The notes below the pieces were generated by a model. The model had not been told where the DNA came from and ran no database searches. It saw nothing but the letters and a program-made list of their open reading frames with translations. From Massilia sp. Root335 (GTDB lineage: Bacteria > Pseudomonadota > Gammaproteobacteria > Burkholderiales > Burkholderiaceae_D): a stretch of DNA of 64,000 nucleotides. The stretch lies in contig NZ_LMCY01000033.1 of assembly GCF_001425685.1 (NCBI RefSeq), positions 116,221 to 180,220 of the forward strand. Direction: 5' to 3'. A program made the position numbers and the translations under genes. Shown here in pieces: positions 52,108 through 64,000 of the stretch (the first letter of the stretch is position 1; each line of letters opens with the position of its first letter).

Positions 52108-55100
52108 ATGATCGGAGCGCTCGTCGAGGCCGTTGCGGCAAACCGGACGCGCTGGCGGCGCGCGCGCAACCTGCGCGCCGCCAAGCGCCCGCCGGCGCCC
52201 GCGCGCGCACGGGCGCGCGTGGCCGGCCCGGCACCGCTGCGCTGGCTCACGGCCGGCTGCGTGCTGATGGCCGCGGCGGGCGCCGTCCTCATCGTCGTGC
52301 ACGCGCGCTGGCTGGCCGCGGCCGGCGCGATTGCGCCCGGTGACGGCGCCGCGCGCTTCCAGTCTGTGCTGCCGGGCCTCGCGTTCACCGTGCCGCAAGC
52401 CGAGGGCGCAACGGTGCGCACGCGCGGCGCGGCGGCGCTGCTCATCCTGTCCGGCATGCGCGCCGGCCCCGTGCACCGCGTCGACCTGTGCGGCCAGCTC
52501 GCGGACCGCACGCGCCCCGGCCGCCTGCTGCCGCTGCGTATCGGCTGGACGTTCGCCGACCTGGCCGGCCTCGAAGCGCCGCGCAACGTGCTGCTGACCG
52601 ACCGGCCGATGCCGCGCGTGCGCATCGACGGCCGCGCCGCGCCGGATGCGCCCGACCTGAGCCTGCGCTGGGACGGCCAGGCGCAGTGGCTGGCCGCCGG
52701 CGCCGGGCCGGTGGGCGGGGCGACGGGCCAGGCCGCGCTGCGCGGCGACGGCTGGCTGACGTGGCAGGGCGGCGCGCTGCGCCTGCAGCGCCGGGCGAGC
52801 GGCGCGTGTCCGCTGGCCGGCGAACTGCTCGTGCAGCCCTATAGTCCGGCGCCCGCACGGCGCGCCCTCGTCGTCGCGCTGCCTGCGGACGGCCCGGCCG
52901 TCGAGGCGCTGCTGGCGCCGGGCGACTATCGCGTGCCGGCGGCGTCCGCGCCGGCGCTGGAAGACGAGCAGTTGTTCGCGCAACTGAGCGCCCGCGGCCT
53001 CGTGCGCCTCGGCGCGAACGGCCTGGCCGAGCTGGCCCCGCCCGACCTGGCCGCGTGGCGCGCGGCCGGCAAGACGCCGTGGGATGGCGTCACGCTCGAC
53101 GGCGACGCGCTGCGCCTGCTGGAGCGCCTGTACCGCCGCGCCGACGGCGATTTCGTGCGCGAGCAGGTACGCATCTTCAATGCCGAACGGCGCCTGCTCG
53201 CCTGGCGCGTGCCCGGCGCGGACGCCGCGAGGATGCCCGGCACCTGGCGCGCCGACGCCGTGCTGGGCGCGGCAACGGCGGCGACGACGGCGCCGGTGCC
53301 GCTGGCGGACGACATGCCGCCCTCGATGGCGCGCCTGTTCGCGCGGCTGCCGCAGGGCTGGGCCCCGTGGCAGCGCGTGGACGCGTGGCCGGCGGGCGCC
53401 TTTGCTGCGCGCGTGCACCTGCATCTGGCGGCGCCGGCCCGTGCCGGCGACAGCATCCGGCTGATGCTCGCGGGCCGCCTGCGCCACGTGGCGGGCGCGC
53501 GGCTGCGTAGCGATCCGCAGCCCGCTTGCGACGGCCGCGCGTGCGGTGCGCCCGACGAGGTGCAGGTGCTCGACCTGCTGCCGGACGCGGGCGCCGGCGA
53601 GATCGTGCTGGACGCCGACCCGCTGCCGCCCGCGGCCCTCGCCACGCCGGGCGATGCGCGCTACCGCCACCTCGTCGTGCGCGCCGGCCGCCTCGCCTGG
53701 CAGGCGCTCGGCCCGGCCGCGGCCCGCGCGCCGGCGCCACTGGCCGACGTCGTGCTGGCCGACCGCGCCGGCGTCCCGCTGTGGCGCGCCGGCGCCCCGA
53801 CCGATGCGGCGCGCGCGGCCGGCCTGGCGACCTTGCTGGGCGTGCGGGCGAACCAGCCCGGCAGCGTCGCCGCGATGCTGGGCCGGCTTCCGGGTGCCCA
53901 TCACGCGGCGCGCCTCACGCTGGACGCCGGCCTGCAGGCGGCCGCGCAGGCCGCGCTGGAGTGCATCGCCATGCGCCGCGGCCGGTGGGACGGCGCGGCG
54001 TGCAGCGGCGCCGGCGCCGTGCCGGCCGGGCGGCAGGCGGGCGTCGTCCTGCTCGACACGGAGACGGGCGCCATCCTCGCGGCGGCCGGGGCGGGCATGC
54101 CGGCGGTGGATGCCGCGAACTGGCGCGAGGCGCGCGACTTCGACCGCGTCGACCCGGCCGCGAGCCCGCTGCGCCTGCCCGCGCTGCAGCACGACGGCGG
54201 CGCGGAACGGGCGCCGGGGTCGACGTTCAAGATCGTCAGCGCCCTCGGCCTGGAGCTTGCGGCGCGCTCCGACCAGCAACTGGACGCCTTGCTGGACGGC
54301 CTGCCGCTGGCCGGCATCAACGCCGTGGCGCGCGCGCGCGGCTTCGCGTTCCGCACCGACGCGCCCACCTATCCGCTGGACGGCCGCGCCCACATCACGA
54401 ACTTCCGCGACCAGGGGCTGGACCGGCGCGCGCACGACGGCCGGCTCGGCGTCGCGCAGGCGCTGACGTACAGCCTGAACACGTGGTTCGCATGGATGGG
54501 CGAGTTGTCGGACCGGAGCCTGCGCGGCCGGCCCGACGGCGGCGTTCCCGACCTGCAGCCATTGGCGCCGGATGCGCTGGATGCGGTGCGGCCGATCGTC
54601 GCGATGGCGCGCCGGCTCGGCTTCGGCCAGGCGCTGCGCCTCGACGGCGGGCTGCTGCCGGCGGACTACCCGTGGTCGGCATGGGATGCGCTGCAGGCGA
54701 CGCCGGCCGGCATCGACCCGATCCACACGCGCCACGAGCTGCGCCAGATGGCGATCGGGCTGCGCATGCAGGCGACGCCGCTGCAGATGGCCCTCGCGGC
54801 GGGCGCCGTCGGCCAGGGGCGGGTGATCGTGCCGCACTTGCTGGGAGAGCTCGACGGCGTCGCGGCGGCGCCCGTCGCCGGGCCGGCGCTGGGCGTGCGC
54901 CTGGACCGCATCCGCGCCGGCATGAAGGGCGTCGTCGACGTAGGCACCGCATCCGGCGCGTTCCGTGCCCCGGAACTGGCCGGCATCCGCCGTGGCCTGT
55001 CCGGCAAGACGGGGACGGCGCCGGTGGGCGACGGCACGCTCGCCACGGTCTGGTTCACGGGCTGGCTGGAGCCGCACAGCGTGCCGGGGCAGGACCACCG

Positions 55101-55215
55101 CCTGGCCGTCGCCGTCTTCGTCAGCCGCTCGGAAGCGACCGGCGGCGCGCACGCGGCGCCCGTCGCGGCGGCCGTGCTGGGCGCGCTGGCCCGCCGGAAT
55201 CCGCCAACGCGTTGA
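52108..55215 (+). CDS. Penicillin-binding transpeptidase with unknown N-terminal region
   Basis: A 1035-residue membrane protein with GAGGGGG before the ATG. One membrane helix (about 45-68) leads to a 550-residue periplasmic region of no recognised family. No GT51 glycosyltransferase signature (EDxxFxxH, GGSTITQQ) was found. The transpeptidase domain begins with TLDAGLQAAAQAALE (about 610). The active site is complete: Ser705-Thr-Phe-Lys708, Ser789-Leu-Asn791 and Lys967-Thr-Gly969. It should cross-link peptidoglycan or act as a beta-lactam-binding sensor. It opens a rightward set of seven genes ending in a Ser/Thr kinase fusion; 103 bases separate it from the next gene. Confidence 0.85.
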   Translation: MIGALVEAVAANRTRWRRARNLRAAKRPPAPARARARVAGPAPLRWLTAGCVLMAAAGAVLIVVHARWLAAAGAIAPGDGAARFQSVLPGLAFTVPQAEGATVRTRGAAALLILSGMRAGPVHRVDLCGQLADRTRPGRLLPLRIGWTFADLAGLEAPRNVLLTDRPMPRVRIDGRAAPDAPDLSLRWDGQAQWLAAGAGPVGGATGQAALRGDGWLTWQGGALRLQRRASGACPLAGELLVQPYSPAPARRALVVALPADGPAVEALLAPGDYRVPAASAPALEDEQLFAQLSARGLVRLGANGLAELAPPDLAAWRAAGKTPWDGVTLDGDALRLLERLYRRADGDFVREQVRIFNAERRLLAWRVPGADAARMPGTWRADAVLGAATAATTAPVPLADDMPPSMARLFARLPQGWAPWQRVDAWPAGAFAARVHLHLAAPARAGDSIRLMLAGRLRHVAGARLRSDPQPACDGRACGAPDEVQVLDLLPDAGAGEIVLDADPLPPAALATPGDARYRHLVVRAGRLAWQALGPAAARAPAPLADVVLADRAGVPLWRAGAPTDAARAAGLATLLGVRANQPGSVAAMLGRLPGAHHAARLTLDAGLQAAAQAALECIAMRRGRWDGAACSGAGAVPAGRQAGVVLLDTETGAILAAAGAGMPAVDAANWREARDFDRVDPAASPLRLPALQHDGGAERAPGSTFKIVSALGLELAARSDQQLDALLDGLPLAGINAVARARGFAFRTDAPTYPLDGRAHITNFRDQGLDRRAHDGRLGVAQALTYSLNTWFAWMGELSDRSLRGRPDGGVPDLQPLAPDALDAVRPIVAMARRLGFGQALRLDGGLLPADYPWSAWDALQATPAGIDPIHTRHELRQMAIGLRMQATPLQMALAAGAVGQGRVIVPHLLGELDGVAAAPVAGPALGVRLDRIRAGMKGVVDVGTASGAFRAPELAGIRRGLSGKTGTAPVGDGTLATVWFTGWLEPHSVPGQDHRLAVAVFVSRSEATGGAHAAPVAAAVLGALARRNPPTR

Positions 55216-55318
55216 ATTAAGGGGTATTTTCCACTCAGCTGGGCGCCTCCCCGGTGTGTTTCTATGGCATCATCTATTACGGTCCTGTCATTGGGGATCG
55301 AGCCATCGAAGAGGATTT

Positions 55319-56572
55319 ATGCGTTTGCCGGGGACCCGGTACCAGGAACCGGGGTGGGAGGAAGTGCGCAAATTGCTGGGACAGTGCTCGCTCGCCGCAC
55401 TGCGCGGCGAGGGCGGCGCGCGCCCGGACCGGCTGGACGACTACGTCGAGTGCATGGCCGCGCAGCTGCTGGCCCAGCGCCACGGCGCCCGCGCCCGCGC
55501 GCCCGCCAACGGCTACGGCGACACCGTGTACGAGCTGGCCGTGGCCCTCGTCGTCGAACTGCGCGCCCGTCCGGCCGACTGGGACGCCTTGTGCGCCGCG
55601 CTGGCCGGCCAACCCGCGGGCGACGCGCTGCTGCGCAAGAAGGTGAACGATATGTTTGCCGTGCTGCGCGACCGCGTCGACGCCGACAATTACCAGGCCG
55701 CCTGCGGCCGCCCCTGCAGCCCGAACCGCATGTACGCCTACCGCATGCTGGATACCGCCTACCACGACGTCGCGCGCCTGTTCGCCGGCTGGCGCGCGCA
55801 CCGGGCGCAGGTCGGCGCCATCCTCGGCCGCGCGATCGACGACGGCGCCGCGCCCATCGAAGTGCGCCAGCTGCGCACCATCGCGGACTGCCGGCCCGAG
55901 TGGGTGCTGCGCTGGAGCGCGTCGCTGGAAGCGTTCGGCGGCGGCCCCGGGCCGCTGCACACCCGCTCCAAGCGCTTCGCGAGCCTGAAGACGAGCCCCG
56001 ACAAGATCGCCGCCATGCTGCGCGAGATCGGCGACTACGAACAGTTGTCCGCGAACCGCGACCAGGACTGGCTGCAGGACCTGGACGACGCCTCGGCCTG
56101 GGTCGAGGATTACTGGCGCGTGCTGCAGGAATCGGACAGCGCCGCCACGCCCGGCCCGGACCGCATCCTCGAGGCGCGCCAGGACGCGCTCGACCTGGAA
56201 GAACCGGAACCGGACCCCGTGCCCCCCGAGGCTCCGGCCGACCCGCGCCTGGAAACGCTGGCGCTGAGCGTTTCACTGCCCCCCGGCTATCTGCGGGAGG
56301 CGGCAGCGGCCGCGCCGGCGGACGGCCAGGTCGCGCGCCTGCTGGCCGCCGACGGCCTGCCCGTGCGCCTCGCCGTGTTCGCGCGGCTGCTGGGGCAGGA
56401 CGACGACGTCTATCCGGACGCGTGGCGCGACCCGGCCACCGGCGCGCTGCCGACGATGCAGCAGCTGGCGGCGCTGGCCGAGGTCTCGCTGCCGACATTG
56501 CGCAAGCGGCGCGACGCGGCCATCGCCCGCCTGGGCGCGGCCATCAACGACAAGCGAGGAAGCGATGCATAG
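55319..56572 (+). CDS. Unknown protein with C-terminal HTH (sigma region 4-like)
   Basis: A 417-residue soluble protein; GAGGA lies a few bases before the ATG at 55319. The helical N-terminal part (about 1-250) has LLGQCSLAALRGEGGARPDRLDDYVECMAAQLLAQRHG and CGRPCSPNRMYAYRMLDTAYHDVARLFAGWRAHR. An acidic Pro-rich linker (about 285-310) is followed by a C-terminal domain. That domain ends PTMQQLAALAEVSLPTLRKRRDAAIARLGAAI, which reads like a helix-turn-helix of sigma-70 region 4. I do not recognise the full family. It overlaps the next gene by 8 bases. Confidence 0.7.
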   Translation: MRLPGTRYQEPGWEEVRKLLGQCSLAALRGEGGARPDRLDDYVECMAAQLLAQRHGARARAPANGYGDTVYELAVALVVELRARPADWDALCAALAGQPAGDALLRKKVNDMFAVLRDRVDADNYQAACGRPCSPNRMYAYRMLDTAYHDVARLFAGWRAHRAQVGAILGRAIDDGAAPIEVRQLRTIADCRPEWVLRWSASLEAFGGGPGPLHTRSKRFASLKTSPDKIAAMLREIGDYEQLSANRDQDWLQDLDDASAWVEDYWRVLQESDSAATPGPDRILEARQDALDLEEPEPDPVPPEAPADPRLETLALSVSLPPGYLREAAAAAPADGQVARLLAADGLPVRLAVFARLLGQDDDVYPDAWRDPATGALPTMQQLAALAEVSLPTLRKRRDAAIARLGAAINDKRGSDA

Positions 56573-57125
56573 CGACGACACCACCTCCCGCCGGCTGCAG
56601 GAAGCCCTGCTGCTGGAGCGCCGCAGGGCCGGCGACCGGCTGATGCTGGACGACGCCACGCTGGCCGCCGCGCTGGACGGCAGCCGGCCGCTGACGGCGG
56701 GCGAGCGGGCCGCGCTGCAGGCGTCGCCGCTGACGGCGCGCCGGCTGCGCCATTTGGCGCTGGAACGGCGCGCGGCGGCCGTCGCATGGCGCGGCAGCCG
56801 CGGCGTGCTGCGCGCGGCCAGCAGCGGCACGCCGGCCGCCCTCGTCACCGAAGACGGCTGGTGGACGCTCCATTTCGTGGACGCCGGCGGCGCCTGGCGC
56901 GCGATCCTGCAACTGGCGCCGCAGGCCCCGTTCGCGGAAGCGCTGCTGGTGGCGCGCGCGCCGCTGCGCGTGGCGGACGGCGCCGGCGCCACGATCCTGG
57001 CCGCGCAACTCGATGCCGACGGCGAGTGCGAGGCCCCGTGGCCGTTCGCGGCCGCGCCGGGCGACCATTTGCAGGCGCACGGCGCCCGCTTCACCGTCGA
57101 ACCGCTGGAGGCGGACACACCATGA
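56565..57125 (+). CDS. Unknown protein, anti-sigma-like N-terminus
   Basis: A 186-residue soluble protein that overlaps genes on both sides (8 and 4 bases). The first 70 residues (TLAAALDGSRPLTAGERAALQASPLTARRLRHLALERR) resemble the helical sigma-binding part of anti-sigma factors, but without the zinc-binding His/Cys. The C-terminal 100 residues are predicted beta-rich (TEDGWWTLHFVDAGGAWRAILQLAP). No membrane helix is visible. Pairing with the HTH protein upstream is suggestive only. Confidence 0.6.
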   Translation: MHSDDTTSRRLQEALLLERRRAGDRLMLDDATLAAALDGSRPLTAGERAALQASPLTARRLRHLALERRAAAVAWRGSRGVLRAASSGTPAALVTEDGWWTLHFVDAGGAWRAILQLAPQAPFAEALLVARAPLRVADGAGATILAAQLDADGECEAPWPFAAAPGDHLQAHGARFTVEPLEADTP

Positions 57126-58177
57126 TCCCATTCTTCAAGCGCGCCGCACCCGCCCACGACGCGTGCAGCCTCGGACGCACGGCCGTCGCGGTGCCCCTGC
57201 AGCCCGGCTGCGGCACGCCGCCGGGCTGCCCCATCGTGATCGTCGACGCCGACGGCCGTCCGCGCCGCGCCACCACGCCGCCCGGCAAGAAGGTCGAGCT
57301 GCGGCCCGGCGAACTGGCGTGGGCGTTCCACCCGGGGCCGTACACGATCGCCATCGTCCCGTTCGCGCAGGCGCCCGAGATCGGCCTGCGCACCACGTTC
57401 GCCATCGACCCGCTCGACCCGGCGCCGGCCGGCAAGCGCTTCGACCTGTATCTCGCGGCGGAAGCGGACGGCCGCGTCGACCTGGCGGCGCTGGGCGCCG
57501 CCGTCGAGGGCGCCGTGCGCAGCGCGCTGGAGCAGGGCGCGCTGGACCTGCCGCCGTGCGCCGACATCGACGAGTGGAACGCGTTCCGCCTGGGCCTGAA
57601 CCAGTTGCTGTACCTGCGTTTCGGCCTGAGCGTGGACGATTGCGTGCCCGTCGAGCTGGACGACGTCGATTACGCGGCGCAGCTGGCCGCCCGCGCCGCC
57701 GGGGGTGCCGTCGCCGTGGCCCCGGCGTCGGTCGCCGAACGCGTCGAACGCGTCGAGCCGGCGCTGGCCGATGCGAAGGCCTTGCGCCGGATGTTCCTGG
57801 AACTGCCTTGCCTGATGTGCGGCCTGCGCCTGGGCGCGCTGCCGTCCGGGCAGGACCAGTTCCGCCAGCAGCAGGCGTTGTTGCAGCGCCTGGACCGCCT
57901 GTCGGTCGAGATCACGACGATGCCGGCGCTGGTGCTGGCCGCGCCGGGCCAGCCGCTCGCCATCGACGACCAGCTGCGGCGCATGCGCCACAGCCGCCGC
58001 GCGACGGTCGCGCTGGACGAGGCGTGGGCGCTGCTGGCCCGTCTCGACGGCGCCGACAAGGACGAAGGCGATGCGCGGCTCGCGGCGCTGTACGACGAGG
58101 CCGAGCGCATCGTCGCCAACCTCGAAGCGGAATGCGCCGGCCGCCGCGCCGTGCACGCGGCGAAGGAACCGGCATGA
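57122..58177 (+). CDS. Degenerate SPFH-like protein
   Basis: A 351-residue protein starting at 57122 (ATGA overlap). The segment PPGKKVELRPGELAWAFHPGPYTIAIVPFAQAPEIGLRTTFAIDP, then a helical stretch, then LNQLLYLRFGLSVDDCVPVELDDVDY follows the order of strands and helices seen in the SPFH domain of the 59214 gene. I therefore read it as a diverged SPFH paralogue. The C-terminal 120 residues are helical (QDQFRQQQALLQRLDRL, LYDEAERIVANLEAEC). There is no signal peptide or membrane helix. It may co-assemble with the larger SPFH protein. Confidence 0.6.
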   Translation: MIPFFKRAAPAHDACSLGRTAVAVPLQPGCGTPPGCPIVIVDADGRPRRATTPPGKKVELRPGELAWAFHPGPYTIAIVPFAQAPEIGLRTTFAIDPLDPAPAGKRFDLYLAAEADGRVDLAALGAAVEGAVRSALEQGALDLPPCADIDEWNAFRLGLNQLLYLRFGLSVDDCVPVELDDVDYAAQLAARAAGGAVAVAPASVAERVERVEPALADAKALRRMFLELPCLMCGLRLGALPSGQDQFRQQQALLQRLDRLSVEITTMPALVLAAPGQPLAIDDQLRRMRHSRRATVALDEAWALLARLDGADKDEGDARLAALYDEAERIVANLEAECAGRRAVHAAKEPA

Positions 58178-59175
58178 CGGCCCCGCAGCAGGCGACCTGC
58201 CGCAGCCGCCTCGCCGACGGCACGCTGCTCACGGTGACGGCCACGCGGCGCGAGCGCGCCGGCCGCGCCGACGTCAAGTGCACGGTGCCGGGCGACCCGC
58301 AGCGCGCCGAGCGCTTGCAGCAGGCCGTGCGCCTCGCGCGCCACACGGAAGCGAAGATCGACAGCCGCGACCAGGTCGTGCTCAGCGCCGACCGCGCACC
58401 GTCCGGACGCGACTGCGAACTCGCGTTCGTCCTGGCCGACCGCATGGTGCGCGGCGTGTGGCATGGACGCGGCGGCGTGGTCGCGAACGGCTGGTCCGAC
58501 GCGTGGCAGCTGGGGCGTGTCGACGGCCACGACGTCGCCGACGCGTCGCCGGACGCGCTGCTGGGCGGCCCGGACGGCCTCGCGCACCTGGGCCAGCTGG
58601 ACGGCCACCCCGATCCCGGCGCACGCGTGTCCAGCGCACGCGCGTGGTTCCCGCTGCACAGCGGCGGCGACGGCGACGCCCTGGCATGGGTCGAGGTGAG
58701 CGTCCAGCCGCTGGCACCGGATGCGGAGCGGGTGGACGAGGAACAGACGATCGTCGTGCCGGGTGCCGATGCGGCGCGCCAGTCGGCCGTGCGCCAGGCG
58801 CTGGCCGGCGCCCGCCATTTCGACGGCCGGGGCCTGCACCGCTGGCGCACGACGGTGCGATTCGGCGCCGCCGGTTTCGCGGGCCGGTCGTACGAACTGG
58901 CGCTGGTGCTGGCCGACCGCATGGCGCGCGGCCGCGAATTCCTGCCGCGCGCGCGGCTGCTGGCGACCGGCTGCTCGGATGCCTGGCACGTTGGCCGCGT
59001 GGACACGGTCGACGGCCTCGCGCCGAAATGCGCGCTGCTGCTGCGCGAGGCCGGGCCGGGCGACCGGATCGTGCTGCCGCATGCGTGGCGCGACGGCTTG
59101 CCGCTGGGGTTCGTGGACGACGTCCGCGCGCGCGGCGCGAGCGTCGCCTGCGTCGAGCGGATCGGGATCATTTGA
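58174..59175 (+). CDS. Duplicated-domain protein resembling Lon protease fold
   Basis: A 333-residue soluble protein starting at 58174 (ATGA overlap). It contains two similar halves: GRDCELAFVLADRMVRG...ANGWSDAWQLGRVDGHD (about 70-120) and GRSYELALVLADRMARG...ATGCSDAWHVGRVDTVDG (about 233-285). The second half ends LAPKCALLLREAGPGDRIVLPHAW, which follows the order of the S16 Lon proteolytic domain (GPSAG helix, TG...GxVxxVGG, K, ILP). A Ser sits at the nucleophile-like position of the second half and a Cys in the first. The usual Lon lysine position is Ala. It may be an inactive or altered protease. Confidence 0.6.
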   Translation: MTAPQQATCRSRLADGTLLTVTATRRERAGRADVKCTVPGDPQRAERLQQAVRLARHTEAKIDSRDQVVLSADRAPSGRDCELAFVLADRMVRGVWHGRGGVVANGWSDAWQLGRVDGHDVADASPDALLGGPDGLAHLGQLDGHPDPGARVSSARAWFPLHSGGDGDALAWVEVSVQPLAPDAERVDEEQTIVVPGADAARQSAVRQALAGARHFDGRGLHRWRTTVRFGAAGFAGRSYELALVLADRMARGREFLPRARLLATGCSDAWHVGRVDTVDGLAPKCALLLREAGPGDRIVLPHAWRDGLPLGFVDDVRARGASVACVERIGII

Positions 59176-59213
59176 GGTAGGCTTTGCGCGTGGGCGGAAA
59201 CGGGAAGGAGTCG

Positions 59214-61310
59214 ATGATGTTGCGGATGTTCGGATTAGGCGGTGCCAGGTGCCCGCGCTGCGCGCAGGCCCACGAGGCGGCCGACGGCTATTGCGCCGGC
59301 TGCGGCCTGATGCTGGGGACGCCGCGCCATGCGCCCATGCTGGTCGAGAACCGCTGGGTGCCCGGCCCGGACGAACTGGCCGTGTTCTTCGGCGTGCGCG
59401 CGCTGTCCGGCGTGTTCGTCAAGACCTTGCGCGTGCCCGCCACGGCGCGCGCCTATATCCTGCAGGGCGAGGACGCGACGGAAGTGCCGCAGGGCGAGTA
59501 CGAGATCGAAGGCTTCTTCACGCGCCTGAACCACCTGCTGCGCGACCAGCATGCCGAGATCCTCGTCACGCGCAGCAGCGCGCTTCCCGTCGAATTCGAG
59601 CTTGCCGGCCTGCGCAGCGCGGAACACCTGGAGGTGTCGGCGCGTCTCGCGCTGTCGGTGCGCATCGAGAGCGTGCCCGCGTTCGCGCGCTACTTCATGA
59701 CGATGCCGGGCACGGTCAAGGCGGACCAGCTGCGCGAACTGCTGGCGCAGCCGGTGCGCCAGCTCGCCGCCGAATTCGTCGCCGCGCGCTCGCTGCGCGA
59801 GATGGCGGGGCAGCGCGAATTGCGGCCGGAACTCGACCAGCACCTGCAGGGCGGCCTCGCGACGCTGCTGGCCGATTACGGCCTGGGGCTGGTGCGCGTG
59901 GAGACGCTGGCGCTGCGCCACGACCGCTTCGACGCCAACCGCGCGCGCATCGGCAGCCTGTGGCTCGCCGCCGACGAGCAGCGGGTGAAGGTCGAGCATG
60001 CGCGCCAGCTGGACGAGTTGTACACGGAAGACGAGTGGCGCCGCATCGCGCGTGAGGAAAGCGAGGCGCGCCTCGCGCACCGCCGCGCCGAACTGCGCCA
60101 GGGTGCGAGCCTCGAGCGCGCCGACATGACCCTGCAGAACGCCGAGCGCGCGCAGGCGATCCGCGCCCGCGAGATCGAGCTGTATGGCCGCATCGTCGCG
60201 GCCCGGTCGCGCAAGCAGGCCATCGAGCGCGGCGCGCAGGATCTCGTCGCGGAACTCGAACACGAACTGGCGCAGAAGCGCGGCGCGCGCGCGGACCAGG
60301 AAACGGAATGGGCGCACCTGCGCGAACTGGCGGCCGTGCGCATGCGCGAGGAAGTGGCGCTGGCGCGCGAGGACGCCGCGCAGGCGCGCACCGTCGCGGC
60401 GCAGCGCTTCACGCACCAGTTGCTGCAGCAGCAGATCCGCAACAAGATCGAGCAGGCGCGCGGCATCGAGGACGCGGTCCGCCAGCGCGCGGAACTGGCG
60501 CGCCTTGCCGCGGCCGAGGAAGACGCGGCGCGCCGCATGCGCGCGATCGACGCGGAAGAACACGCGGGCCGCCTGAAACTGCTGGAGCTGGCGAATGCCG
60601 CGCGCCGCCGCGGCGCCGAGCGCGCGCTGGAATGGGACGACGCGCAGGCGGCGGCGCGGCTGCGTGCGGCCGAGCGGGGCGAATCCGTCGATGCCGAGAC
60701 CGTGCGCCAGCGCGTGGAAGCGCTGCGCCGCGACGGCACCCAGGCCGATGCGCTGGCCCAGCACGAAAAGCTGCTGCGCACGATCGCCGCCGACGCGTCG
60801 CTGCAGCGGGCGGCGCTGGACGGCGAGCAGGCGCGCGCCGCGCTGCAGGCCGACGCCGTGGCCGCCGAGCGGGACCACGAGCTGCGCCGCATGGAGGCGC
60901 TGGGCGCCGTCGACGACGCGACCAAGCTGGTGCTGGCGGCCAGCCCGAACGCGGCGCTGCTGGCGGACGTGCTCAAGGCGCGCACGCAGGCCGGCATGAG
61001 CGCGGAGCAGCTGGCGGCGCTCGCGTCGGTGCCGCCGCAGGAGGCGCTGCGGCTGGCCGAGGAACACGTGGCGCGCGAACGCGAACGGCGCGACGCGGAG
61101 CTGGAGCGCGAACGGCGCCACCAGCTCGACCTGCTCGCGTTGCAGAACGACGTGAACAAGGGCGCGCTGGCCACGCAGGCGCAGTTGGGTTCAGGCCTGA
61201 TCGCGGGCGCCGCGGCGCTGGCGCACGGCCAGGCGTGCCGCCACGCGGACGCGCAGGCCGGCGACCGTTTCTGCGGCAGTTGCGGCGCGCCGCTGCCGGC
61301 GCGGGGATGA
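59214..61310 (+). CDS. SPFH/coiled-coil protein with two zinc ribbons
   Basis: A 698-residue protein. AAGGAG precedes two adjacent ATGs (59214, 59217); the second has better spacing. An N-terminal zinc ribbon uses Cys13, Cys16, Cys27 and Cys30. An SPFH-like domain (about 45-260) resembles the virion-core-protein-like branch of the stomatin family (VPGPDELAVFFGVRAL, ALRHDRFD). A long Ala/Arg/Glu coiled coil (about 260-640) and a second zinc ribbon (Cys675, Cys687, Cys690) complete it. It should form large oligomers, perhaps on the membrane under the transpeptidase. It overlaps the kinase gene by 4 bases. Confidence 0.8.
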   Translation: MMLRMFGLGGARCPRCAQAHEAADGYCAGCGLMLGTPRHAPMLVENRWVPGPDELAVFFGVRALSGVFVKTLRVPATARAYILQGEDATEVPQGEYEIEGFFTRLNHLLRDQHAEILVTRSSALPVEFELAGLRSAEHLEVSARLALSVRIESVPAFARYFMTMPGTVKADQLRELLAQPVRQLAAEFVAARSLREMAGQRELRPELDQHLQGGLATLLADYGLGLVRVETLALRHDRFDANRARIGSLWLAADEQRVKVEHARQLDELYTEDEWRRIAREESEARLAHRRAELRQGASLERADMTLQNAERAQAIRAREIELYGRIVAARSRKQAIERGAQDLVAELEHELAQKRGARADQETEWAHLRELAAVRMREEVALAREDAAQARTVAAQRFTHQLLQQQIRNKIEQARGIEDAVRQRAELARLAAAEEDAARRMRAIDAEEHAGRLKLLELANAARRRGAERALEWDDAQAAARLRAAERGESVDAETVRQRVEALRRDGTQADALAQHEKLLRTIAADASLQRAALDGEQARAALQADAVAAERDHELRRMEALGAVDDATKLVLAASPNAALLADVLKARTQAGMSAEQLAALASVPPQEALRLAEEHVARERERRDAELERERRHQLDLLALQNDVNKGALATQAQLGSGLIAGAAALAHGQACRHADAQAGDRFCGSCGAPLPARG

Positions 61311-63565
61311 TGCAGACGGCCATCGACAAGCTGCGCGAACTGCGCGCGCTGCACGAGGACGGCCTGTTGAGCCGCCAGGAGTTCGACAGCCGCAAGAATG
61401 CGATCCTGGACGCGGCGTATGCCGTCAACCCTTCCGTCAACCCTGCCGCCGACTCGTCCGCGCACGCCGAGGCGCCCGCGCGCGCCGGCACCGAGATCGG
61501 CCTGATGGCCACGCAGGAAGTGGGGCCCGCGCACCGCCGCTATCGCCTCGAACGGCTGATCGCGCAAGGCGGCATGGGCGAGGTGTGGCAGGCGACCGAC
61601 CTCGCCACGCACGCGGAACTGGGCCACAGCGCCCAGGTGGCATTGAAAATCCTGCCGCCGCGGCTCACGGAAAATTCGCTGCACGCGAAGCTGCTGATCG
61701 AGGAAGCGGCCCGCGCGCGCCAGCTGGCGCACGAGCACATCGTGCGCGTCTACGACTGGGCGCAGGACCCGGCCACGGGCAGCTATTTCATCATCATGGA
61801 ATGCCTCGAAGGCGAAGACCTCGACACGCTGCTCGCGCGCGAAGGCCGGCTTGCCCTCGACCGCGCGCTCGACATCCTGGCGCCGCTGGCCGATGCGCTC
61901 GACTACGCGTGGGAGCGGCACCACCTCGTCCACCGCGACATCAAGCCCGCCAACGTGTTCCTCGCGCGCGGCGGCGACGTCAAGCTGCTCGACTTCGGCA
62001 TCGCGGCGCGGGCACGCGCCGGCGGCCTCGCGCTGGAGGCGCCGGCCAGCTCGGGCACGGCCGGCTATCGCGCGCCCGAGGCCGGCGGCGGCGGCGTGGC
62101 GGGCGTGCCGGAGCGCGGGCTCGACGTGTATGCCGTCGCCGTCATGTTGTACCGGATGCTGGCGGGCGCGTTGCCGGCGCATGCCGGTCCGGCGCGGCCG
62201 GACGGCGTGAACGACGCCCAGTGGGACGTGCTGCGCGCGGGATTTGCCCCCGAACCGACGCGGCGTCCGGCCAGCGTGGCGGAGCTGCTCGCGCGCCTGC
62301 GCGCCGCGCAGGGACCCAGCGCGGACGAGCTGCGTGCCCGCGCGGAAGCGGAACAGCGTGCGCAGGCCGACGCCACCCGCGAACGCGCCGCGCAGGCCGC
62401 GCGCGACGTCGCGGCGCGCAAGCTGGCGGAGGCGCGCGCCCAGGCCGAGGCGGCCGCGAAAGCCCAGCTGGACCGCCAGCGCCGCGAACACGAACGGGCG
62501 GCGAAGGCGGCCGCCGAAGAGGCGCGGGCGGCGCGCAAGGAAGCGCTGCGCCAGCAGCTCCTCGAGCGGCGCGCGGCGGAAGCGGAAAAGGCGCGGCTGG
62601 AGCGCGAGGAGACGCAGCGCAAACTGGCCCAGGCCAAGGCGGCGGCCGTGTATCTCGCCGAGCAGAAGCGCGCCCGTCTGGAGGAAGCGGCGCGTGCCCA
62701 GGCCGTCCTCGAGCAGCTGCTGCCGACGCCGGCCAGTCCCGTCGCCGATACCGAGGGCGTGCTGCGCGACCGTTTCGAAGGCGGCGAGAGCCGCGGTCCT
62801 GAACTCGTGCTGGTGCCGACGGGCCGCTTCCAGATGGGCTCCCCCGAACACGAGCGCAGGATCGCGATGGAGGCGGGCTCGCAACCGGGCTGGCTGGCGC
62901 GCGAATTGCCGCAGCACTGGGTCGGCATCGAGAAGCCGATCGCGATGGGCCGCTATCCCGTGACGGTCGGCGAATGGCGCCTGTTCGTGCTGGCGACCGG
63001 CTGGCGCACGAGCGGTGAAGTCGACTGGGACGCGCCCGGCTTCGCGCAGACCGACCGCCATCCCGTCGTCGGCGTGAACTGGTTCGACGCGATCCGCTAC
63101 GTGCGGTGGCTGTCGGAGGCGACCGGAAAATCGTACCGCCTGCCCAGCGAGGCCGAATGGGAGTACGCCTGCCGCGCCGGGACGAAGACGGCGTTTTCGT
63201 TCGGCGACACGATCACGACGGAGCAGGCCAACTACGACGGCAACTTCACGTACAACGGCAGCCCGCGCGGCGCGTACCGCCGCGGCACGACGCCGGTCGG
63301 CATGTTCGCGGCGAACCCGTGGGGCCTGTTCGACATGCACGGCAACGTATGGGAATGGGTGCAGGACGTGGTGCACGACAATTACGACGGCGCGCCGCTG
63401 GACGGCAGCGCGTGGGACGAGGGCGGCGACCAGGCCCGCCGCATCCTGCGCGGCGGCTCGTGGCTGTACAACCCGCGCTATCTGCGCTCAGCCTTGCGCA
63501 ACGGCTTTTCGGCCGCGCTGTCGAACGACATCGTCGGCTTTCGTGTCGTGCGCGACCTGATGTAA
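61307..63565 (+). CDS. SHOCT - Ser/Thr kinase - FGE-like fusion
   Basis: A 752-residue protein. The N-terminus IDKLRELRALHEDGLLSRQEFDSRKNAIL is a SHOCT-like motif. The Hanks-type kinase (about 75-340) is complete: GGMGEVW loop, Lys114 (VALKIL), His209-Arg-Asp211 with Lys213 and Asn216, and Asp229-Phe-Gly. A charged coiled coil (about 345-480) follows. The SUMF1/formylglycine-enzyme-like domain (about 498-752) has ELVLVPTGRFQMGSP, RLPSEAEWEYACRAGT, HGNVWEW and LRGGSWLYNPRYLRSALRNG. Both positions of the oxidase Cys pair are replaced (Tyr, Leu), so this domain probably binds rather than oxidises. There is no membrane helix. Confidence 0.92.
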   Translation: MMQTAIDKLRELRALHEDGLLSRQEFDSRKNAILDAAYAVNPSVNPAADSSAHAEAPARAGTEIGLMATQEVGPAHRRYRLERLIAQGGMGEVWQATDLATHAELGHSAQVALKILPPRLTENSLHAKLLIEEAARARQLAHEHIVRVYDWAQDPATGSYFIIMECLEGEDLDTLLAREGRLALDRALDILAPLADALDYAWERHHLVHRDIKPANVFLARGGDVKLLDFGIAARARAGGLALEAPASSGTAGYRAPEAGGGGVAGVPERGLDVYAVAVMLYRMLAGALPAHAGPARPDGVNDAQWDVLRAGFAPEPTRRPASVAELLARLRAAQGPSADELRARAEAEQRAQADATRERAAQAARDVAARKLAEARAQAEAAAKAQLDRQRREHERAAKAAAEEARAARKEALRQQLLERRAAEAEKARLEREETQRKLAQAKAAAVYLAEQKRARLEEAARAQAVLEQLLPTPASPVADTEGVLRDRFEGGESRGPELVLVPTGRFQMGSPEHERRIAMEAGSQPGWLARELPQHWVGIEKPIAMGRYPVTVGEWRLFVLATGWRTSGEVDWDAPGFAQTDRHPVVGVNWFDAIRYVRWLSEATGKSYRLPSEAEWEYACRAGTKTAFSFGDTITTEQANYDGNFTYNGSPRGAYRRGTTPVGMFAANPWGLFDMHGNVWEWVQDVVHDNYDGAPLDGSAWDEGGDQARRILRGGSWLYNPRYLRSALRNGFSAALSNDIVGFRVVRDLM

Positions 63566-63692
63566 GCGGCCCGGCACGATACGAAGCAGCAACTCCACGG
63601 CAGTGACATAATGAAATGGCACGCGGGCGAGGCCGGCCGTGCCGTCCGCGTCCTGCGCGTCTTGCGCGCATTTCGGATACGAGGAGGTTGCC
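63566..63692. other. Short gap after the kinase gene
   Basis: 127 bases with no stem-loop terminator evident. The end holds GAGGAGG, the ribosome site of the small peptide gene. Read-through from the kinase gene is possible. Confidence 0.4.
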
Positions 63693-63797
63693 ATGCGCAT
63701 TCCCAAGGACATCCAGATCCCGTTCATCGTGCTGTCGCTGGAGGCGGTCCTGCTGACCGGCGCGGCGCTGATCTTCCTGATACTGCGCCCCGGTTGA
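63693..63797 (+). CDS. 34-residue single-pass membrane peptide
   Basis: The ATG at 63693 has a near-perfect GAGGAGG five bases upstream. The peptide starts MRIPKDIQIPF and is followed by a hydrophobic helix (about 10-31) ending LILRPG, then TGA at 63795-63797. The strong ribosome site, the amphipathic basic start and the clean helix argue for expression. It lies 127 bases after the kinase fusion on the same strand and may be the last member of that gene set. It matches no peptide that I know. Confidence 0.6.
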   Translation: MRIPKDIQIPFIVLSLEAVLLTGAALIFLILRPG

Positions 63798-63806
63798 GCG
63801 GGACAC

Positions 63807-64000
63807 TCAGGCGTCGAGCAGGCGGGCGGCCGCGCGTCTAAGGTCGCCGGCCTGTCTTGGCTCGTCCTCGCGCCCGGCCTGGTCTTCCGGTCGCGCCCTG
63901 CAGGCGAAGCGCACCCGGCCCGTGAAGCGGGCGAGGCGTTCCAGCACGGTGGCGGGACCCAGCACCGTTTCCTGGCCGGTTCCCGGGTCGAGGTGCCAGA
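63807..64000 (-). CDS. C-terminal end of an unidentified protein (partial)
   Basis: An open frame runs leftward from the window edge to a TGA at 63807-63809, giving about 63 residues: it opens WHLDPGTGQETVLGPATVLE and ends RRAAARLLDA. The other two leftward frames give Pro/Arg/Cys-rich nonsense, so this frame is preferred. Too little is present to name a family. It is convergent with the small membrane peptide gene, with 9 bases between them. Confidence 0.5.
   Translation of the reverse strand, partial: WHLDPGTGQETVLGPATVLERLARFTGRVRFACRARPEDQAGREDEPRQAGDLRRAAARLLDA

Follow-up and report, generated by a model that had tools for sequence, protein, structure and literature searches.

An array of seven genes read in the same direction (52108-63565, + strand) near the end of a 64,000-nucleotide stretch of the Massilia sp. 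Root335 genome (the window; G000:C33:116221-180220, in a genome of 7.11 Mb) and a second operon that converges on it are described here as two halves of one gene set. The array encodes a class B penicillin-binding protein (PBP); proteins of 417, 186, 351, and 333 amino acids; a possible SPFH protein of 698 amino acids (SPFH-like); and a Ser/Thr kinase fused to an FGE domain (kinase-FGE). The window ends 194 bases into the convergent operon, which was read from G000:C33:176000-195999 (L009) and encodes a SEDS protein, a second Ser/Thr kinase, and FHA-like, PP2C-like, MFS, SH3b, and 520-amino acid proteins (Table 1). The reading that we favor, and to which we give about an even chance, is that these two operons of ~15 genes specify a phospho-controlled, conditional wall-synthesis module with kinase- or caspase-FGE parts of the conflict-system type. 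The gene set may be an unrecognized wall-linked stress or defense system; between wall-stress and conflict functions, we lean to wall-stress. We regard the set as one functional unit because its halves are conserved together, its outer blocks are absent together, its motifs are kept, and a distant version occurs in the genome G679. The preliminary description of the window had likewise proposed one system; the array alone proved to be half of it, with the rest past the window end.

Cell-wall growth centers on SEDS–class B PBP pairs. Judged by sequence, the PBP of the array and the SEDS protein of the convergent operon are a third, divergent pair beside the canonical ones, with catalytic motifs kept. 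The PBP has one N-terminal transmembrane (TM) segment, followed by ~500 residues without family assignment, presumably periplasmic, and then the transpeptidase domain (PF00905, E 4.7e-16). Among eight aligned sequences, that of the window included, STFK and SxN (SLN) occur in all eight and KTG in seven, the eighth being G164, where the gene is seemingly split. The SEDS domain (PF01098, 67.3 bits versus a cut-off of 26.4) makes up the C-terminal half of a 783-amino acid protein, in which ~250 residues without family assignment follow the first TM segment. The VQDDF motif, whose aspartate we take from the motif to be the catalytic-loop aspartate of SEDS proteins, is present in 8/8 aligned sequences and reads VQNDF in G679. 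The genome has three PF01098 places (340, 330, and, for the present SEDS protein, 68 bits) and seven PF00905 places, among which the array PBP scores lowest. Homology between the N-terminal domains of the two proteins, suspected by eye, was rejected (hhalign, 0.3%). The preliminary description had cast the transpeptidase as a sensor of wall state. Because all three catalytic motifs are kept and its presence and absence track those of the SEDS partner, it looks like an output enzyme instead. In G164 (L078 4339-7200, 8981-10002), split frames were seen in the PBP and 351-amino acid genes, and a TGA lies inside the match to the 417-amino acid protein in G063 and G166, which hints at decay or sequencing error.

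The array is conserved as a unit. Scanning the genome collection with a profile of the 417-amino acid protein turned up 150 candidate stretches, of which 124 were relatives; the 80 best of these were kept (the named loci). These belong to Massilia, Telluria, Duganella, Pseudoduganella, Rugamonas, Janthinobacterium, unnamed Burkholderiaceae/Oxalobacteraceae, one "Herbaspirillum," and one Pseudomonadota bin; among these best 80 of 124, the nearest named is Massilia, with 89% identity to the protein of Massilia rhizosphaerae. Genes 3–7 lie downstream of the gene for the 417-amino acid protein on the same strand in 71/71 loci with at least 7.8 kb of downstream sequence (9 of the 80 not assessable), and the PBP gene lies upstream in 68/68 loci with at least 3.5 kb of upstream sequence (12 of the 80 not assessable). 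We judge from these counts that the arrangement exceeds chance. Within the window's genus, 36 of 37 genomes (the window's own included) have the gene for the 333-amino acid protein, as against 0 of 24 from other families; the gene for the 417-amino acid protein was found only in the window's own genome in a class-wide sample of 369. Ten other genomes, fetched at 37–40 kb each, were scored for 14 genes. All 14 are present in five (G197, G134, G129, G138, and G169), 13 in G012 (no MFS), and 12 in G164 (no MFS, PP2C not found); G181, G190, and G061 have subsets. Failure of the genes to co-occur in other genomes had been set beforehand as grounds for refuting the proposal; it was not seen.

Seven rightward genes that overlap or nearly touch, as first noticed, were confirmed by coordinates and by the junctions, which in array order are +103, −8, −4, −4, +38, and −4 bases. 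The 34-residue membrane peptide downstream is real, being conserved at the protein level in other loci (tblastn; 39 of the 80 named loci, many of which stop short of the peptide position, and 9 of 13 other fetched loci). A promoter scan of the locus found none, and predicted terminators were not above chance. A tRNA-Val called by ARAGORN at 52213-52306 is taken as false because it lies inside the PBP gene. By its identity of 72%, record L111 stands with those of Massilia, and its label, Herbaspirillum sp. SJZ107, may be wrong. Mobile spread within the home family was considered and rejected: a plasmid search with three of the system's proteins gave no match, and a viral collection gave a single match (L214:2001-2420), in which the gene for the 417-amino acid protein starts just where a 46-kb contig, probably chromosomal DNA, breaks off.

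Presence and absence of the parts are correlated. In one sample of 145 family genomes, probed for the SPFH-like gene, the gene for the 417-amino acid protein, and the SEDS N-terminal region, these were found in 36, 25, and 26 genomes, respectively. Twenty-four of the SEDS-region matches had E 5e-8 or better (that in G150 over 68 residues only); the two weak, short ones (G062, E 5.9e-4; G094, E 7.8e-5) occur in genomes having neither of the other two genes. All 25 genomes with the 417-amino acid protein also have the SPFH-like gene, and 24 have the SEDS region (G061 is the exception); the 11 genomes in which the SPFH-like gene is present and the 417-amino acid protein absent are all without the SEDS region. 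At the loci of G181, G099, G126, G065, and G131, neither the block encoding the PBP and the 417-, 186-, 351-, and 333-amino acid proteins nor the block encoding the SH3b, 520-amino acid, SEDS, and kinase proteins was found, absences that in the further fetched loci rest on tblastn. These five loci, three of which (G181, G065, and G131) are of one genus, retain the SPFH-like, kinase-FGE, FHA-like, and (except G126) PP2C genes, with flanking genes similar by eye. On a 4.8-kb contig of G183, too short to show the other end, the first block is absent as well.

In a tree of the SPFH-like protein covering 34 of the 36 genomes (G107 and G151 left out), the first block distinguishes the members of four independent pairs on supported branches, and the second block changes in the same way in 3.5 of them on average and never in the opposite way. 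The SPFH-like protein has also diverged: its identity to the window, relative to that of the kinase-FGE, is offset by −15.0 to −17.9 points in five of six reduced loci, as compared to a minimum of −14.6 in 64 complete ones. Three of these five loci are from one genus. The sixth, G183, has an offset of −8.7, which does not pass that minimum, and its kinase value covers part of the gene only.

A distant version of the set occurs in G679. In an order-wide sample of 399 genomes, the SPFH-like gene was found in seven, of which G679 is the one outside the family. There, ~42 kb hold relatives of 11 components at 27–44% identity, with the gene order reshuffled: PBP (37%), SEDS (39% for the C-terminal part, 29% for the N-terminal), kinase (34%), PP2C (44%), SH3b (32%), SPFH-like (36%), and the 520- (32%), 186- (44%), 351- (27%), 333- (34–39%), and 417-amino acid proteins (33%, over the N-terminal 237 residues only). 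The motifs of the PBP, SEDS, kinase, and PP2C proteins and the Lon-like Ser/Lys motifs are kept. Relatives of the FHA-like, kinase-FGE, and MFS proteins were not found in this region; it encodes three caspase (PF00656)-FGE proteins, one matching the caspase profile only partly. One caspase-FGE gene directly follows the SPFH-like gene, which is the position of the kinase-FGE in Massilia. Between the genes for the 333-amino acid and SH3b proteins are an FtsK/SpoIIIE-type ATPase (PF01580, E 6.2e-21) and three proteins of ~100 residues. The region is flanked past the gene for the 417-amino acid protein by a phage-type integrase and a tRNA-Leu and past its other end by transposase genes, and the PBP N-terminal profile is found in 1 of 43 genomes of G679's family. 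The simplest reading for this one genome is that the set was acquired as a block, probably as a mobile island.

Two further observations concern G679. The ~100-residue proteins beside the ATPase (L228:4130-6923) recall type VII secretion substrates, with no such Pfam match. A frame at L227:10621-11676 joins sigma-70 region 1.2 and part of region 2 directly to an FGE domain, with similar FGE domains nearby, as though recombination had placed an FGE cassette inside the gene of a sigma factor.

Among the other array proteins, the kinase-FGE has Pfam matches for its kinase (E 1.9e-33) and FGE (E 6.9e-58) domains, and SHOCT is below the cut-off (E 8.3e-6); the protein has no TM segment and retains the VALK, HRD, and DFG motifs. 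At the motif inspected, its FGE domain lacks the cysteines that mark a true FGE. The SPFH-like protein has N- and C-terminal zinc ribbons below the cut-off (Pfam, E 7.4e-4). Its description as SPFH is weakly supported: a possible SPFH region at residues ~140–234 aligns collinearly with 16 Band_7_1 proteins (hhalign, 92 columns, E 0.005, probability 7%), and there is no Pfam match to Band_7 or Band_7_1 to E 10. Two other early assignments gained no support from the searches made. The 351-amino acid protein, called SPFH-like, has Pfam matches at chance level only, and its profile has no PDB sequence match; the 186-amino acid protein, called anti-sigma-like, has zero Pfam matches to E 10, as is also the case for the 417-amino acid protein. 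PDB sequence searches at the limits used gave no match for the PBP, SEDS, SPFH-like, 417-, and 351-amino acid proteins and one chance-level match (E 0.22) for the 333-amino acid profile. Pairwise hhalign among 11 component profiles yielded no pair above 30%.

The 333-amino acid protein has Pfam matches at chance level only, and its structure was predicted with AlphaFold (44 sequences, pLDDT 89.2, pTM 0.84). The model matches Lon-like domains of Lon, RadA, ComM, and BrxL, mostly over residues 153–333 (best Foldseek E 1.7e-8; listed Z 14.4–17.0), the closest listed being RadA (5lkm_C; Z 17.0, rmsd 2.6 Å, 160 aligned residues). The N- and C-terminal halves match each other (hhalign, 97.3%, E 2.4e-11). 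The duplicated Lon-like fold proposed at the outset is thus supported, the structural matches being mainly over the C-terminal copy. S239 and K285 of this copy are invariant in 44/44 aligned sequences, and their spacing of 46 compares to 43 in the genome's own Lon, the two being matched by motif and not by coordinates; the N-terminal copy has no Ser/Lys pair. S239 and K285 are therefore a putative Ser-Lys dyad only, because a direct profile comparison with the genome's own Lon aligned nothing relevant.

The model of the 417-amino acid protein is all-helical (pLDDT 83.4, pTM 0.57), and its last 80 residues weakly resemble sigma region 4 (best Z 4.8 over ~60 residues). No Foldseek match was below 1e-3, sigma factors making up many of the weak ones, and a repeat structural look found nothing above Z 5, although the fold may be a known one. 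The helix-turn-helix (HTH) label given at first is retained for a modeled C-terminal HTH. The evidence is not enough to call the protein a sigma factor, because its likeness to region 4 reaches only Z 4.8.

In the convergent operon, the FHA-like protein has GR and SxxH motifs in 9/9 aligned sequences, that of the window included; it has no Pfam match to E 10, and the NCBIfam match is to TagH (E 0.049). The sole hydrophobic stretch of the 320-amino acid kinase, residues 213–231, falls within the kinase domain. The MFS gene lies between the PP2C and SH3b genes in five of seven complete or near-complete fetched loci (66–81% identity) and was not found in G012 and G164. Genes between the two operons vary among genomes and look unrelated by eye; a cargo at this place was rejected, since the genes there differ by genome. 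The same genome has a second kinase cluster (L011:1265-18365; G000:C4, ~101–118 kb) with a 776-amino acid Ser/Thr kinase, FGE-type, PP2C-like, FHA-like, and sigma-54-activator-like frames, and an ABC transporter, identities here being by eye except for DNA matches.

Table 1. Features of the two operons; positions are those of the window or, where marked C33, of the contig (G000:C33).
Feature	Position	Strand	Length (amino acids)	Basis or remark
Class B PBP-type transpeptidase	52108..55215	+	1035	PF00905 and motifs
HTH protein, all-helical	55319..56572	+	417	Predicted structure
Protein without Pfam family	56565..57125	+	186	Open reading frame and Pfam scan
Protein without Pfam family	57122..58177	+	351	Open reading frame and Pfam scan
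Two tandem Lon-like domains	58174..59175	+	333	Model and hhalign
Two-zinc-ribbon, possible SPFH protein	59214..61310	+	698	Weak Pfam and hhalign
SHOCT, Ser/Thr kinase, FGE/C-type-lectin-like	61307..63565	+	752	Pfam
Single-TM peptide	63693..63797	+	34	tblastn conservation
FHA-like gene, 3' end only in window	63807..64000	-		First visible part of convergent operon
FHA-like protein	C33:180027-181532 (L009:4028-5533)	-	501	GR and SxxH motifs
PP2C-like phosphatase	C33:181667-182659	-		Pfam E 0.0012, below cut-off; motifs kept
MFS transporter	C33:182695-183963 (L009:6696-7964)	-		
SH3b membrane protein	C33:184574-185065	-	163	Pfam E 4.2e-5, below cut-off
Protein without Pfam match	C33:185073-186635	-	520	
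SEDS protein	C33:186605-188956	-	783	PF01098 E 1.6e-18
Ser/Thr kinase	C33:188953-189915	-	320	PF00069 E 1.4e-24

In a conditional wall-synthesis module, the working part would be the set's own SEDS polymerase and class B PBP, extra to the two canonical SEDS genes and the other PBPs. By analogy with an actinobacterial locus (below), the two Ser/Thr kinases, the PP2C-like phosphatase, and the FHA-like reader might toggle this synthase or its scaffold, with the SPFH-like protein as a candidate scaffold organizing the complex. Wall or foreign ligands may be detected by the SH3b protein in the membrane and by the FGE (lectin-fold) domain, the latter acting as a lectin-type, ligand-binding domain of the kind put forward for conflict systems. 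A cytoplasmic control unit could be formed by the Lon-like protein together with the 417-, 186-, and 351-amino acid proteins, and this unit may work by regulated proteolysis of something like a sigma factor. During envelope attack, the module would build or remodel wall conditionally.

Several points weigh against this reading. The PBP is nearest to PBP2 in NCBIfam at 74.6 bits versus a cut-off of 455, and the SEDS protein is near-equally close to FtsW (59.3) and RodA (52.0), far under the cut-offs; both enzymes thus fall well short of their subfamilies, and therefore their activity could be altered. Neither kinase has a PASTA match or a clear TM segment, and the FHA-like and SPFH-like assignments are weak. 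The number of independent changes is small, with four supported pairs (median sign test, p 0.125). Outside the family, the sampled genomes gave G679 only. The modules are also separable, because parts stand alone: the SPFH-like, kinase-FGE, and FHA-like genes persist elsewhere without wall enzymes, and G061 has the 417-, 186-, 351-, and 333-amino acid and SPFH-like genes, but neither PBP nor kinase-FGE was found in its 37 kb, nor the SEDS N-terminal region anywhere in its genome. Lastly, the caspase-FGE genes of G679 may point to defense instead, an alternative that gains some weight from them.

The defense alternative, in its strict form, is that this is primarily an FGE-centered conflict system, anti-invader or leading to programmed death, in which the FGE/lectin domain would recognize an invader and the N-terminal kinase or caspase would respond, with the wall enzymes serving to protect the cell or abort it. 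We consider it rather unlikely. In its favor, kinase-FGE in Massilia and caspase-FGE in G679 both directly follow the SPFH-like gene; three caspase-FGE proteins (one partial), the FtsK/SpoIIIE-type ATPase, and the integrase all occur in the G679 region; and published systems place varied effectors N-terminal to FGS domains termed invader-sensing and lectin-like (PMC7159879 and PMC8195603, in the parts available). However, PADLOC on 10 of 14 proteins gave only kinase models and one weak match in the PP2C region (E 0.059), no vWA or MoxR domain is present in the 14 proteins, and three proteins gave no plasmid match; moreover, the near-universal presence of the 333-amino acid protein in the genus is less patchy than expected of defense genes. 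A transferable immune-like system with a constructive effector, in which an invader- or damage-sensing kinase-FGE (caspase-FGE in G679) would act through an SPFH-type scaffold and Lon-like and sigma-like gating on a private SEDS-PBP synthase, which would seal off or mend the envelope under attack, is in our estimate also rather unlikely.

Inheritance at one site with flanks similar by eye would fit a housekeeping or developmental wall machine, serving for example resting cells or stationary phase, whose neighbors regulate its expression and beside which the kinase-FGE/SPFH-like part is a separate adjoining system; persistence of the SPFH-like, kinase-FGE, FHA-like, and usually PP2C genes alone in several genomes agrees with this. 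Yet SPFH-like and wall-enzyme genes are interleaved in one region of G679, and the SPFH-like protein has diverged in five of six reduced loci beyond the 64 complete ones, as if its partners had been lost (three of the five being of one genus, and G183 not following). This makes such a machine quite unlikely. Linkage by vertical descent in one family, with no functional unit at all, would account for the confinement of relatives in the sampled genomes, apart from G679, to the window's family. It is highly improbable, given that the blocks from either end of the locus are absent together and that the genes are jointly present in another family at 27–44% identity in reshuffled order.

A divergent extra SEDS-PBP pair in Gram-negative soil bacteria, present and absent together with five proteins without family and once accompanied by caspase-FGE, makes directly testable the idea of wall synthesis as a signaling-controlled stress or defense output. 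The complete, reduced, and island forms amount to deletions made by nature, from which the roles of individual parts can be worked out.

The preliminary description knew of no system of this composition, and none was found by title or start of abstract among the papers listed in a limited literature search, outside of which most subscription papers fell. Among the closest known systems is the actinobacterial pstP-rodA-pbpA-pknA-pknB-fhaA-fhaB locus, which links SEDS, PBP, Ser/Thr kinases, PP2C, and FHA (PMC6554272, in the part available). Similarly, the Massilia set encodes together a SEDS protein, a class B PBP, Ser/Thr kinases, a PP2C (below cut-off), and possibly an FHA-type protein (a weak assignment). 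Unlike that locus, it is Gram-negative, has kinases without PASTA match or clear TM segment, and is divided into two convergent operons; its SEDS-PBP pair is a third, very divergent one with large extra N-terminal domains; and it adds the SPFH-like, Lon-like, SH3b, and 417-, 186-, 351-, and 520-amino acid proteins and the FGE fusion.

FGS/FGE-centered conflict systems resemble the set in having a kinase or caspase effector N-terminal to an FGE/C-type-lectin fold, and some have peptidoglycan-binding SH3 domains (PMC7159879 and PMC8195603, available parts). They differ in that the Massilia set has no vWA or MoxR in Pfam searches of 14 proteins. As to a dedicated SEDS-PBP pair, "FtsW" and "penicillin" do not occur in the available text of PMC7159879, nor "FtsW," "transpeptidase," and "peptidoglycan" in that of PMC8195603. 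As regards the vWA-MoxR (VMAP) ternary systems, neither a vWA nor a MoxR component is thus present in the 14 proteins, no search having been aimed at the VMAP component. Among named anti-phage systems, PADLOC gave no system-specific match (10 of 14 proteins). Chlamydial kinases likewise have a Ser/Thr kinase followed by a C-terminal FGE-like (DUF323) domain, but these are described as single proteins, with no linked wall synthase in the available part of PMC1262709. Residues 153–333 of the 333-amino acid protein share the fold of Lon, RadA, and ComM (S16), whereas this protein is a stand-alone tandem pair without an ATPase. From these comparisons of sequence, the system appears to be new in kind and made of parts from known families, because it lacks the defining trait of the actinobacterial locus, a PASTA membrane kinase, and that of the vWA-MoxR systems while sharing parts with both.

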